Assembly: GCA_021787565.1 (NCBI GenBank)
Contig: JAJYLT010000004.1
Coordinates: 1-52,294 of the forward strand
Length of the DNA stretch: 52,294 nucleotides
Source of the DNA: Acidobacteriota bacterium
GTDB lineage: Bacteria > Acidobacteriota > UBA4820 > DSQY01
Direction of reading: 5' to 3'
Position numbers and translations under genes: made by a program. Positions 17,697 through 23,045 of the stretch are shown here, piece by piece (the stretch's first letter is position 1; the number at the start of each line of letters is the position of its first letter). The notes under the pieces were generated by a model. The model was not told where the DNA came from and ran no database searches. It was given only the letters and a program-made list of their open reading frames with translations.

Positions 17697-17772
<76 letters not shown>

Positions 17773-18494: not shown

Positions 18495-18524
18495 TTGAAG
18501 GCATGCGGCGCTCGCGCGTATACT
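18495..18524 (+). promoter_or_regulatory. Sigma70-type promoter of the receiver/GTPase-kinase genes
   Basis: TTGAAG (18495-18500) and TATACT (18519-18524) are 18 bases apart, about 57 bases before the GTG start of the receiver gene. Confidence 0.6.
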
Positions 18525-18581: not shown

Positions 18582-18929
18582 GTGAAGGTCCTGGTGGTGG
18601 ACGACGACCGGCTGATCCGGAAGATGGCCAGGGCCGTCCTGGAGGAAGAGGGGCACGAATGCCTCGAAGCGGGAACTCCGGCCGAAGCCCTTCGCCTGTT
18701 GCGGGAGGCCCGTCCCGACGTCTGCTTTCTGGACTTCATCCTGCCGGACATGGACGGCCTCAGCCTCCTGCGCGTGTACTCGGCGGAGGCCGCAGAGGGG
18801 CGGGCCCGGGTCTTTCTCCTTACCGGGAGCGAGAGTGATCACCTGCTGGAGCAGGCGCGAAAAAGCGGAGCGGAGGGGATCCTGCGCAAGCCCTTCGATC
18901 CCGAAATCCTGCTCGCCAAGCTGAAGTAG
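18582..18929 (+). CDS. Single-domain response regulator beside the GTPase-kinase fusion
   Basis: A 115-residue CheY-like receiver. The acidic triplet is D7-D9 in VVDDDR, the phospho-acceptor is D51 in FLDFILPDMDG, T81 in LLTGSES and K103 in LRKPFDPE complete the active site. The start is GTG, eight bases after AGGAG; it opens directly with the first beta strand. The stop is 16 bases before the GTPase-kinase gene, so it is the natural phospho-partner of that kinase. No output domain is present. Confidence 0.86.
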   Translation: MKVLVVDDDRLIRKMARAVLEEEGHECLEAGTPAEALRLLREARPDVCFLDFILPDMDGLSLLRVYSAEAAEGRARVFLLTGSESDHLLEQARKSGAEGILRKPFDPEILLAKLK

Positions 18930-18945
18930 TCGAGGGGGGACACCG

Positions 18946-21012
18946 ATGGTTCAGTTCCGGCACACGCAGCGCGAGATCCAGTTCAAGGTAGTCTATTACG
19001 GACCGGCGCTCGGCGGCAAAACCACCAACCTGGAAGCCCTCCACGAGATCACTGACCCCGATAACAAGACCCAACTGGTTTCTCTCAAGACGGCGGAAGA
19101 CCGCACCCTCTTCTTCGATTTCCTGCCCTTCGACCTGGGGGAGATCCAGGGGTACCACGTCCGGCTTCAGGTCTACACCGTCCCCGGCCAGGTGCACTAC
19201 AACACCACTCGAAAGGTGGTGCTGGCGGGCACGGACGGCATCATCTTCGTGGCCGATTCCCAGCCCGTCCGGTCGAACGAGAACTACATCGCCTGGGAGA
19301 ACATGCGCGCCAACCTGCTGGCCAACAAGATGGACCTCCACCAGATCCCGGTGGTGATCCAGTGCAACAAGCAGGACCTGTCCGATGCCCTGCCCAAAGA
19401 GCAGGTGCTGGCCGCCATGAAGGTGGATTCCCCCAACGTCACGCTCGCTTCGGCGCTCAACGGCGAGGGGGTCATGCAGACCTTCCTGACGTGCATCCAG
19501 CTCATGCTGGGGCTCTTCGTCGAGAAGTTCAAGCTGGCGGACCGCGGCGTCACTCCGGCCCGGATCTCCGCGGCCGTGTCGGAGGTGTTCGCCCCCCACA
19601 TGGCCAAGCGAAGGACTCCGCCCGCCCAGATCCCGGCCGCCCCCGAGCAACCACCCGCCGTGGGGCTCAGCGACGAGGAGCAGCTCGTGGCGGCCCTACA
19701 GTCCAGCACGCAGCTGGCAGAGCAATACCAGGAGGCCCACCTCCTGAGCCGGATGTACCAGGCCCGCCTGGATGAGATGACGACGATCTACAACGTCGGA
19801 AAGGGCCTGTCCGCGGCCCAGAGCATCGAGGAGGCGCTGAGCCTCACGGGGACGGTCCTGCACGAGTTCAGGCCCGCCTGGCAGGTATCCCTGTTCACCA
19901 CCGGCGAGGCGGGGGTATCGCCCCTGGCCACCTTCGGCGGCGAGGAGGACCCTCTCTGGACCGCCGACGCGCCCGGAGCCGGGAACCTCGCCCTGGGCCT
20001 GATCCAGCGAGGAGAGCGGACGCACCTTATGGACCTGCCCGCCCTTTTTCAGCGGCTCAAGGCCTCGCCCATCCCGCCCCGGGCCGACGCCCTGGCCCTC
20101 CCCCTCGGGGCCGCGGACAAACCCACGGCCTACCTCATCGCCTATTCACCTCAGGACTCCCCCTTCAGCAAGGAGGAGGACCGTTTCCTAGCGCTTCTCG
20201 AACAGATCGTCTCTCCGAGGCTGCAGACGCTGGCTCTCTTCGACGCCCTGGCCGCCGCCAACGAACGCCTGGAAGTCAAGGTGCTGGAACGGACCGCCGA
20301 CCTGCAGGAGGCCCTGGAGCGGCTCCAGGAGCTCGACCAGCTCAAGCGGGCCTTCCTGAACAACGTCTCGCACGAGATGAAGACCCCCCTCACCAACGTC
20401 CGTTCATACGCCGACCTTCTCCGCCGCTACCCGCAGCAGCGGGAGAAGAACGCCGACGAGTACCTCGGCATTATCTACGAGGAGTCCCTGCACCTCGAGA
20501 CCCTCATCAACGACCTCCTGTCCTACACGAGGATCAAGGAGCCGCCCCGCGGCGAGTCGTGCGATCTCGTGGCGGCTCTGGAGGAGGTCCTCGAAACGCT
20601 GGGCGCGCTGGCCGAGCGCAAGCACCTCAAGGTCCAGGTCCAGAAGGAGGGCGACACGCTCTTCTTCGAAATGAACCGGGAGGATGCCGTCATCCTGTTC
20701 CGCCAGATCCTCGATAACGCCTTCAAGTTCTCCCCCGAGGGGGTCAAGGTGAAGATCTACCTGCTGCAGGACGCCAAGAGGGTGATCTTCGCCGCTCGGG
20801 ACTACGGCCCGGGCTTTCCGAAGGAGCAGCAGGAGCGGCTCCTGGAGCCTTACGAGGCGGGGAATCCCACCGTTCCGAGCTACAAGGGACCCGGCCTCGG
20901 CATGGGCCTCTTCCTGGTCAAGGAGATCCTGGCCAAGTACCACGGGGGGATCGCCATCGAGAACATGGAGCCGGGAAGCAACGTGCTAGCCGAGCTTCCC
21001 AGGCACGCTTGA
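18946..21012 (+). CDS. MglA-like small GTPase fused to GAF domain and histidine kinase
   Basis: A 688-residue cytoplasmic protein with an unusual order. Residues 1-200 are a complete MglA/Ras-like GTPase: P-loop GPALGGKTTN (19-28), VPGQ in place of DxxG (79-82) as in MglA, NKQD (141-144) and an SAL-like G5 at about 169-171. A proline-rich linker and helix (205-285) lead to a GAF-like sensor region (about 285-430), a coiled coil (430-470) and a histidine kinase: phospho-acceptor H476 in SHEMKTPL, N-box LDNAFKFSP (589-597), DYGPGF (619-624) and GLGMGL (650-655). All catalytic motifs are intact. It is co-transcribed with the receiver upstream. Known MglA proteins control polarity and motility; here nucleotide state probably controls kinase activity, which is inference. 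Confidence 0.92.
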   Translation: MVQFRHTQREIQFKVVYYGPALGGKTTNLEALHEITDPDNKTQLVSLKTAEDRTLFFDFLPFDLGEIQGYHVRLQVYTVPGQVHYNTTRKVVLAGTDGIIFVADSQPVRSNENYIAWENMRANLLANKMDLHQIPVVIQCNKQDLSDALPKEQVLAAMKVDSPNVTLASALNGEGVMQTFLTCIQLMLGLFVEKFKLADRGVTPARISAAVSEVFAPHMAKRRTPPAQIPAAPEQPPAVGLSDEEQLVAALQSSTQLAEQYQEAHLLSRMYQARLDEMTTIYNVGKGLSAAQSIEEALSLTGTVLHEFRPAWQVSLFTTGEAGVSPLATFGGEEDPLWTADAPGAGNLALGLIQRGERTHLMDLPALFQRLKASPIPPRADALALPLGAADKPTAYLIAYSPQDSPFSKEEDRFLALLEQIVSPRLQTLALFDALAAANERLEVKVLERTADLQEALERLQELDQLKRAFLNNVSHEMKTPLTNVRSYADLLRRYPQQREKNADEYLGIIYEESLHLETLINDLLSYTRIKEPPRGESCDLVAALEEVLETLGALAERKHLKVQVQKEGDTLFFEMNREDAVILFRQILDNAFKFSPEGVKVKIYLLQDAKRVIFAARDYGPGFPKEQQERLLEPYEAGNPTVPSYKGPGLGMGLFLVKEILAKYHGGIAIENMEPGSNVLAELPRHA

Positions 21013-21073: not shown

Positions 21074-22849
21074 TCAGGCGGGCTTGGCCTCGGCGGCCGG
21101 CCTCACGAATTGGTGGAAGAGCCCCTTGTGGAAGGCGCTGTTGAAGGCCGCGACGACGGTGGGATCGTAGACCGTCTCCTTCAGCTCGTTGATGCGGGCC
21201 GCGCCCTGCGCCAGCGTCATGGCGCGCTGGTAGGGGCGGTTGGTGGTCATGGCGTCGAAGGCATCGGCCACGCCGATGATGCGCGCGATGACGGGGATCT
21301 CCTGCGCCTTCAAGTTGTCGGGGTACCCTCCGCCGGACCACTTTTCGTGGTGGTGGCGGATGCCGGGAATGATCTCCCTCATCTGCGGGATTCCCCCCAG
21401 GATCTGGGCACCCTTGGGCGGGTGCGTCTTCATGATCTCGAACTCCTCCGCGGTCAGGGCGCCGGGTTTTCTCAGGATCTTGTCCTCTATGCCGATCTTG
21501 CCCACGTCGTGCAGAAGCGAGGAGATCTCCATGATCCGCAGGTTGCGTTCGTCGAGGCCGTACTCCCGCGAGATGATCATGGAGTAGGCCGAGACGCGCT
21601 CCGAGTGTCCGCGGGTATACGGGTCCTTCGCGTCCAGCGCGTTGGCGATGGCGCGGATGGAGTCCATGAAGAGCTGCTGGGTCTCGCGGGCGGCGGCCTC
21701 CACCTTCTGGATGTAGTCCTGGATGTCGTCCGCCATGGCGTTGAAGGCGCGGGCCAGGTCGCCGATCTCGTTCCGGCTCCGGATGTCCGCGCGCTGGCTG
21801 AAGTTCCCGCGGGCCAAGTCCCGGCTCACCTCCGCCAGCTTGGAGATGGGCCGGGTGATGAGGCCGGCCATGACCAGGCCGACCAGCAGCGCCCCGGCGA
21901 TGGAGAGCAGGACCCACAGTTTCGATTGCTGCCTGAGCTGGAGGATGGGGGCGTAGTATTTCTCACGGTCCACCTGGGCGAAGAGAAGCCACCTGTAGCC
22001 GTTGATCGGGGCGCAGGTCACGAGATAGGTCCGCGGCTTTCCGTCCACCCTCTTGGTGACGTTGTAGTTGACCGCGCTGGTGGGATAGACGCCCGAAACC
22101 AGCATCCGCTGGACGATGGGGTCCGTGGAGAGGTCCTTGGTCTGTCCCTGGTAGGCCGCGTTGGAATGGAAAAGGAGATTGCCGTTATCGTCGGTGACGA
22201 AGAGGGTGAACTCCCGGCTGTAGTCGGTGAGGCTGTCCTGAACGCTCTGAAGCAAAAAGATCCCGGTGATGGCCGCCACGGTCTGTCCTTCCGACTGGAT
22301 GGGCGCCGTGAGCACCATGGCGGGCTCGGAGAGGCGGCCCAGGGCGGCCAGGCGGACGTAGAAGACGGGGGAGGCACCGGGCTGGCCGCTCGACAGGCAC
22401 TGGCGCGCCATGGGCGAGACCAGGCTCGTGAGCTGTGCCTGTTCGTTGGGCGTCAGCCCCTTCCACTGGGCCGTGAACTGGTTGCCCTGGGGGTCCTGGT
22501 AGGCCAGGATGAGTGAGTCGTTCGACAGGTAGCGCCCCAGGATGTCCCGCTGAAGCAAATCCTCGAAGTTGATCTTCGCGTCCGGGTCGTTCGAGTAGAC
22601 TTCGAAGGCCGCTACCAGGTCCCCCAGTCGGCGCCGGTACTCGTCGAGCAGGTTCTGGATGTGGGCGGCGGCGGGGATGGAGGTCTTGAGTTGGCGTTCA
22701 CGAAGCGACTCCTCGATGTAGTCCTTGCTCATGGAGATGGCCTTCCAGGAGTAGGTGACGAGGGGCACGACCACTATGACGACCAGGAGGACGGACAGAA
22801 CCCAGAAGATGCTGATGCTCTTGACCAGGCGCTTGGGATCTTCGGGCAC
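21074..22849 (-). CDS. Membrane sensor with dCache-like, HAMP and HD-GYP domains
   Basis: A 591-residue inner-membrane protein: a helix near the N-terminus (IFWVLSVLLVVIVVVPLVTYS), a periplasmic double-Cache-like sensor (about 45-290), a second helix (WVLLSIAGALLVGLVMAGLI), HAMP, then HD-GYP with H447-D448 in LLHDVGKIG and HHHEKWSGGGYP. The last motif has GGGYP rather than GTGYP. It should degrade cyclic di-GMP in response to an external ligand. The start is GTG at 22849 with GAGGAGGGTGGC upstream; the longer frame reads through a promoter. It is convergent with the GTPase-kinase gene. Confidence 0.9.
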   Translation of the reverse strand: MPEDPKRLVKSISIFWVLSVLLVVIVVVPLVTYSWKAISMSKDYIEESLRERQLKTSIPAAAHIQNLLDEYRRRLGDLVAAFEVYSNDPDAKINFEDLLQRDILGRYLSNDSLILAYQDPQGNQFTAQWKGLTPNEQAQLTSLVSPMARQCLSSGQPGASPVFYVRLAALGRLSEPAMVLTAPIQSEGQTVAAITGIFLLQSVQDSLTDYSREFTLFVTDDNGNLLFHSNAAYQGQTKDLSTDPIVQRMLVSGVYPTSAVNYNVTKRVDGKPRTYLVTCAPINGYRWLLFAQVDREKYYAPILQLRQQSKLWVLLSIAGALLVGLVMAGLITRPISKLAEVSRDLARGNFSQRADIRSRNEIGDLARAFNAMADDIQDYIQKVEAAARETQQLFMDSIRAIANALDAKDPYTRGHSERVSAYSMIISREYGLDERNLRIMEISSLLHDVGKIGIEDKILRKPGALTAEEFEIMKTHPPKGAQILGGIPQMREIIPGIRHHHEKWSGGGYPDNLKAQEIPVIARIIGVADAFDAMTTNRPYQRAMTLAQGAARINELKETVYDPTVVAAFNSAFHKGLFHQFVRPAAEAKPA

Positions 22850-22873
22850 GCCACCCTCCTCGGAATCGAGGTC

Positions 22874-22904
22874 ATTATAGGTCAGGACGCCTGAAAAATG
22901 CCAA
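22874..22904 (-). promoter_or_regulatory. Promoter of the HD-GYP sensor gene
   Basis: A perfect TATAAT (22879-22874, minus strand) and TTGGCA (22904-22899) with a 19-base spacer. Predicted transcription start is near 22867, giving a leader of about 18 nt that includes GAGGAGG. Confidence 0.55.
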
Positions 22905-23045
22905 GTCTCTTCGCCTGGATGGGGACAGGGGACGGGAGGGGGAGAACTGAAGCGGGAAGGGCAATCGGTCTCTTTCAATTCGCAATTCGCCATTCACGAT
23001 CCCCCATCCCTCCGGGGCTGGAGGCACGCGGGACGGCTGGCTTGG

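Follow-up and report, generated by a model that had tools for sequence, protein, structure and literature searches.

MglA of M. xanthus and T. thermophilus is a free, single-domain GTPase which is usually coupled to its GAP, MglB. Within this family Thr78 replaces the residue usually conserved at that position (PMC3000849), and exchange of Q82 for leucine in M. xanthus MglA abolishes MglB-stimulated hydrolysis (PMC2907295). Two further residues of the M. xanthus protein, K181 and K185, lie in contact with the MglB C-terminal helix, and their mutation lowers MglB-stimulated hydrolysis (PMC6785124). In the systems covered by the literature examined, namely RomR, Frz and the conservons, MglA-type GTPases and two-component systems communicate via separate proteins.

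Next to MglA/MglB, the nearest described systems are the actinobacterial conservons (CvnA-D), in which an MglA-family GTPase is paired with a histidine-kinase-like protein and which in some cases carry GAF-type accessory proteins (PMC4316618, PMC13343842). In the former report, the kinase CvnA and the MglA homologue CvnD are described as encoded side by side and without a response regulator, and the kinase as having a C-terminal extension with an LPxR motif (PMC4316618). A census of prokaryotic Ras-like proteins from 2014 comprises 1,315 G-domain proteins, the longest with 1,448 amino acids, is centred on the clade holding nearly all proteins of 240 amino acids or less, and in the passages covered here does not describe a fusion of the MglA-GAF-histidine kinase kind. 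Searches of the open-access literature retrieved work on single-domain MglA and on conservons only, with neither a description of an MglA/GTPase-kinase fusion nor a link between partner switching and an MglA-kinase, in keeping with the first-pass annotation, which knew of no described system with this order. Another related arrangement is the soluble GAF histidine kinase with its single-domain response regulator, composed of a GAF-signalling helix-HisKA-HATPase_c chain and an adjacent receiver.

The locus described here is located in a 52,294-nucleotide stretch of an Acidobacteriota contig (JAJYLT010000004.1), which will be denoted as the window. It consists of two genes, one for a receiver and one for a protein of 688 residues which combines, in a single intact open reading frame, an MglA-type GTPase, a helical linker, a GAF domain and a HisKA/HATPase_c kinase core (residues 467-686) (Table 1). 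Contrary to free MglA, the GTPase has a GAF-histidine kinase part attached, has no MglB neighbour, carries Ala21 and lacks the K181/K185 pair. The multidomain chain thus departs from the single-domain format of less than 240 amino acids of the MglA family as well as from its genomic coupling to MglB/roadblock genes, since the window harbors no such gene and the only two roadblock genes in the genome are found on contigs C7 and C58. Whereas a conservon comprises four separate genes (kinase, roadblock CvnB, CvnC and GTPase) and no response regulator, the present locus has two genes, one of them for the fused chain, with no roadblock neighbour and a linked receiver. Compared with soluble GAF histidine kinases, the fusion adds an N-terminal Ras-like GTPase with intact active-site motifs. 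The single chain, the intact GTPase and kinase motifs, the upstream receiver-only gene and the lack of an MglB-like gene in the window had all been proposed in the first-pass annotation and are confirmed. Upstream of the locus lies a tRNA-Ala (CGC) gene (17697-17772, minus strand), and downstream a convergent gene for a dCache-HAMP-HD-GYP protein, a probable c-di-GMP phosphodiesterase (21074-22993, minus strand).

Table 1. Features of the receiver-fusion locus (window positions) and loci of the sister-clade module.
Feature	Position	Strand	Basis
Possible sigma-70-like promoter before receiver gene, TTGAAG-18-TATACT	18495..18524	+	Consensus match only; 1 found, 0.1 expected
Receiver-only gene (single-domain response regulator), GTG start, D51 phospho-acceptor	18582..18929	+	Response_reg
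MglA GTPase-GAF-histidine kinase fusion, 688 aa, without transmembrane segment	18946..21012	+	ORF, Pfam, motifs, relatives
MglA-type GTPase domain, residues 1-195: GPALGGKT, D52/R53/T54, T78-VPGQ82, NKQD	18946..19530	+	3t12 match, model versus 6h5b
Linker, residues 196-290: low-confidence stretch 225-241, then predicted long helix 244-290	19531..19815	+	AlphaFold2 model
GAF domain, residues about 291-405	19816..20160	+	Model of 243-432, Foldseek, GAF_2 in relatives
Signalling helix and dimerisation/phospho-acceptor domain, residues 406-530, H476 in VSHEMKTP	20161..20535	+	HisKA, model
Catalytic ATP-binding domain, residues 538-688: N591, D619xG621xG623, GLGMGL	20557..21009	+	HATPase_c
Sister-clade module loci	L157:6313-11788, L156:5966-11730, L033, L154, L155, L158, L030, L029		

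An Arf/Ras match in Pfam covers the N-terminal GTPase of the fusion. Among solved structures, residues 1-205 match best by sequence to T. thermophilus MglA (3t12, 8.6e-53) and M. xanthus MglA (5e-49), the next non-MglA structure following at 7e-06 or weaker, and the domain is 41-48% identical to the MglA proteins of these organisms. R53, T54, Thr78, Q82 and the NKxD motif have the same numbering as in MglA, and the predicted fold superposes on MglA-GTPgammaS (6h5b) with a TMt of 0.90 in Foldseek. The nucleotide-binding motifs GKT (24-26), VPGQ (79-82) and NKQD (141-144) are present. K25, T26, R53, T54, T78, G81 and Q82, among them the MglA-family traits T78 and Q82 of the VPGQ motif, are invariant in all 53 fusions covering this region, and N141, K142 and D144 in 54 of 54. 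Position 21, which P-loop spacing aligns with Ras Gly12, is alanine in 31 of 34 fusions versus 2 of 15 short MglA proteins, the other 13 having glycine. In a wider set Ala21 is found in 41 of 53 fusions, the remainder belonging mainly to the Holophagaceae branch. An alanine at the Ras-Gly12 position need not slow hydrolysis, and other small GTPases have residues other than glycine there.

Further differences from free MglA are observed at the positions contacted by MglB. Basic residues occupy both 181 and 185 in 13 of 15 short MglA proteins and in none of 34 fusions. Together with the alanine at the Ras-Gly12 position, the loss of the lysine pair suggests, at the level of sequence, that the fused GTPase has left MglB control at least in part; L64 and I67, which are also located near the MglB helix, are kept, so that binding of MglB may persist. 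A departure from MglB control, if true, bears on how Ras-like switches acquire new regulators. An organism devoid of MglB was rejected as an explanation in view of the two roadblock genes in the genome, and the one on C7, directly upstream of a canonical MglA gene, forms an MglB-MglA pair there. The second roadblock gene (L172, G000:C58:60125-60373) has no MglA-like gene nearby and is a candidate regulator in trans.

Pfam depicts no GAF match in the window protein itself, and GAF_2/GAF matches are found in relatives of the fusion. Residues 243-432 modelled alone (mean pLDDT 89) match the GAF structures 6oap, 3ci6 and 3p01 in Foldseek. Because the relatives and the predicted structure both point to this domain type, the GAF-like sensor of the first-pass annotation is correctly assigned. 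The full-length AlphaFold2 model (mean pLDDT 78, pTM 0.42) consists of a G-domain up to residue 194, a mixed alpha/beta domain (294-405), a long helix which follows the GAF region and continues into the DHp domain, and an ATP-binding domain from about residue 538, the C-terminal part superposing on HK853/WalK-type kinases in Foldseek; at a pTM of 0.42 the model does not fix the domain contacts. The hydropathy of the protein peaks at 1.44 over 19 residues, below the level of a membrane span, and the fusion is therefore probably cytosolic.

The kinase half gives Pfam matches to HisKA (467-532, 1.4e-16) and HATPase_c (582-686, 8.4e-14) and possesses H476, N591, DYGPG (619-623) and GLGMGL (650-655), thus the phospho-acceptor histidine and the N and G boxes expected of a HisKA kinase. 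The chain stops immediately behind the catalytic domain, its last residues being ...NVLAELPRHA. Neither the window protein nor any other member of its family has lost H476, N591 or the G boxes. Among all aligned fusions the phospho-acceptor histidine is found in 40 of 54 and has been lost in several lineages. In one genome (G009) a second fusion paralogue (L024:1498-3564) has SGD in place of SHE at the phospho-acceptor site and is likely a pseudokinase with an intact GTPase.

The receiver gene ends 16 bases before the ATG of the fusion, and its product matches Response_reg (6.1e-24) over residues 3-114, its whole length, with D7-D9, D51, T81 and the lysine of the RKP motif all present. Each of the eight family members with flanks has a receiver directly upstream, at a distance of no more than 17 bases or with an overlap. 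Over the entire set a receiver-only gene on the same strand adjoins 21 fusions, upstream in 20 of them, and is missing from many others, including all Planctomycetota fusions with flanks. The histidine is present in every one of the 21 fusions that adjoin a receiver, versus 15 of the 27 that do not (Fisher p=3e-4, uncorrected for kinship, n=44 with sufficient flanks). On the tree this association reduces to only three well-supported independent pairs and is not significant; that presence of a receiver predicts an intact kinase is therefore not established. By best match, receivers do not pair up across clades. A proposed orthology between the window receiver and the sister-clade receivers was found unsupported, the window receiver ranking only 26th to 28th among the matches to them in its own genome, and the fusion-receiver pairing is thus not one inherited gene pair; receivers have probably been recruited or replaced more than once. 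The earlier description of the receiver as the fusion's own consequently holds as a regular neighbourhood and not as a universal, commonly inherited one.

Taken together, the two genes would constitute a small two-component system, in which the MglA-type GTPase would serve as the built-in switch module of the kinase. The GTPase may cycle at a low rate or be controlled by some regulator that is not MglB, and its GTP/GDP state, together with a signal sensed by the GAF domain, could be relayed along the uninterrupted helices into the DHp domain. There the relayed signal would set kinase versus phosphatase output (H476, ExxT motif), and the phosphate of H476 would be passed on to D51 of the adjacent receiver, which, lacking a DNA-binding domain, presumably acts through contact with other proteins. 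That a cytosolic kinase is controlled by a GTPase of its own chain, for the most part freed from MglB, and delivers phosphate to the adjacent receiver is a reading that we hold with about even confidence. The proposal of the first-pass annotation that the GTPase switch is coupled to phosphorelay is backed by the single chain, the intact motifs, the linked receiver and the occurrence in two phyla, but control by the nucleotide state rather than the reverse is not established by these features. As both active sites reside in one chain, a single purified protein, with the neighbouring receiver as its one likely substrate, suffices to test their coupling and its direction. Nucleotide gating of phosphorelay, if true, would link Ras-type switches directly to two-component signalling.

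By analogy with the conservons, signal flow could also be reversed, the GAF-kinase half being the sensor and the GTPase the output, switched by conformation of the kinase or by phosphorylation. Wuichet and Sogaard-Andersen posit MglA as the conservon output (PMC4316618). In 12 of 48 relatives the GTPase is kept while the histidine is gone, and the GTPase residues are invariant even there (L024, L032, L116, L041, L175, L174). Kinase output is thus not the function common to all fusions, the GTPase may be less dispensable than the kinase, and for the relatives without the histidine this reversed flow is favoured; the many fusions without an adjacent receiver point in the same direction. In the clade of the window, however, the kinase is intact and the receiver tightly linked, which would be needless if the kinase served its own GTPase only, and reversed flow is considered unlikely overall.

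We regard it as rather improbable that the GTP-bound MglA domain merely places the kinase at a pole or at the pilus or gliding machinery without catalytic gating. Free MglA is indeed a polarity protein which localises by its GTP state (PMC2907295), and the predicted partial disorder of the GTPase-GAF linker (pLDDT < 50 at 225-241) would suit a tether. Contrary to such a role, no pilus or motility gene is found among the annotated neighbours, and the predicted helix 244-290 leads on into the GAF domain, an arrangement seen in sensors that transmit signals.

That the frame is an artefact, joining adjacent mglA-like and kinase genes by an assembly or sequencing error, can be dismissed with near certainty despite the 77-contig assembly of the window, since the same frame is found in independent assemblies across the order and the phylum, in Planctomycetota and in the 6-Mb single-contig record of Acidobacteria bacterium Mor1 (L030). 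This disposes of the assembly join named in the first-pass annotation as a possible refutation: the fusion is present at 98% identity in a genome of the same genus and at 55-71% in family members with enough contig, and purifying selection acts on every domain (dN/dS 0.03-0.32 for the close pairs compared). It also occurs in the next family of the same order. Within Acidobacteriota, 54 of the 396 genomes contain a match at E<=1e-55, and in at least 42 of them it reaches beyond residue 420, a lower bound with two candidates scored per genome; in Planctomycetota matches extend past residue 460 in 9 of 294 genomes. No kinase-reaching match at E<=1e-85 was obtained among 148 Nitrospirota and 189 Myxococcota genomes, with few candidates scored per genome, so that the lack of matches in Myxococcota is uninformative on its own. 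Loci lacking gene calls were covered by ORF searches, and a scan of viral contigs gave no match.

The closest relatives of the fusion outside the order of the window form a sister clade on the tree, in which the gene order is constant and reads GAF-SpoIIE phosphatase, receiver, MglA-GAF-histidine kinase, an RsbW-like HATPase_c_2 protein, a PAS-HisKA protein without ATPase domain, and STAS. The RsbW-like protein is only sometimes present and then overlaps the end of the fusion, whereas the eight loci with wide flanks all have SpoIIE upstream, seven of them the HisKA-only protein and six STAS. These conserved neighbours tie the fusion to partner-switching control in this clade, where the same core would be wired to a switch of SpoIIE phosphatase, RsbW-like kinase and STAS, and the HisKA-only protein may serve as a partner in phosphotransfer or in a heterodimer. 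The fusion of the window, by contrast, is accompanied by the receiver only and is not surrounded by such a set. We propose only tentatively, and with less than even confidence, that one-chain GTPase-kinases in which an MglB-independent Ras-like nucleotide state gates phosphorelay exist phylum-wide, with one clade coupled to SpoIIE/RsbW/STAS.

Related architectures are observed beyond the fusions proper. In the genome of the window an MglA-like protein with a C-terminal extension (L003, G000:C48:40109-42720) has its gene immediately behind those for a histidine kinase and a receiver-containing regulator. MglA-like proteins of 300-620 amino acids, with C-terminal extensions lacking a Pfam match in those scanned, are found in many bacteria, with loci in the same genome (L004 and L005 on G000:C3 and C6), Nitrospirota, Fibrobacter and Planctomycetota. 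A Holophagaceae (Geothrix) variant unites MglA, PAS, a degenerate kinase core (HATPase_c) and a C-terminal receiver in one chain (L054:5902-8361). In the hybrid loci of this family (L054, L057, L063, L070, L080, L095, L096) the kinase motifs are poorly kept and the GTPase is intact.
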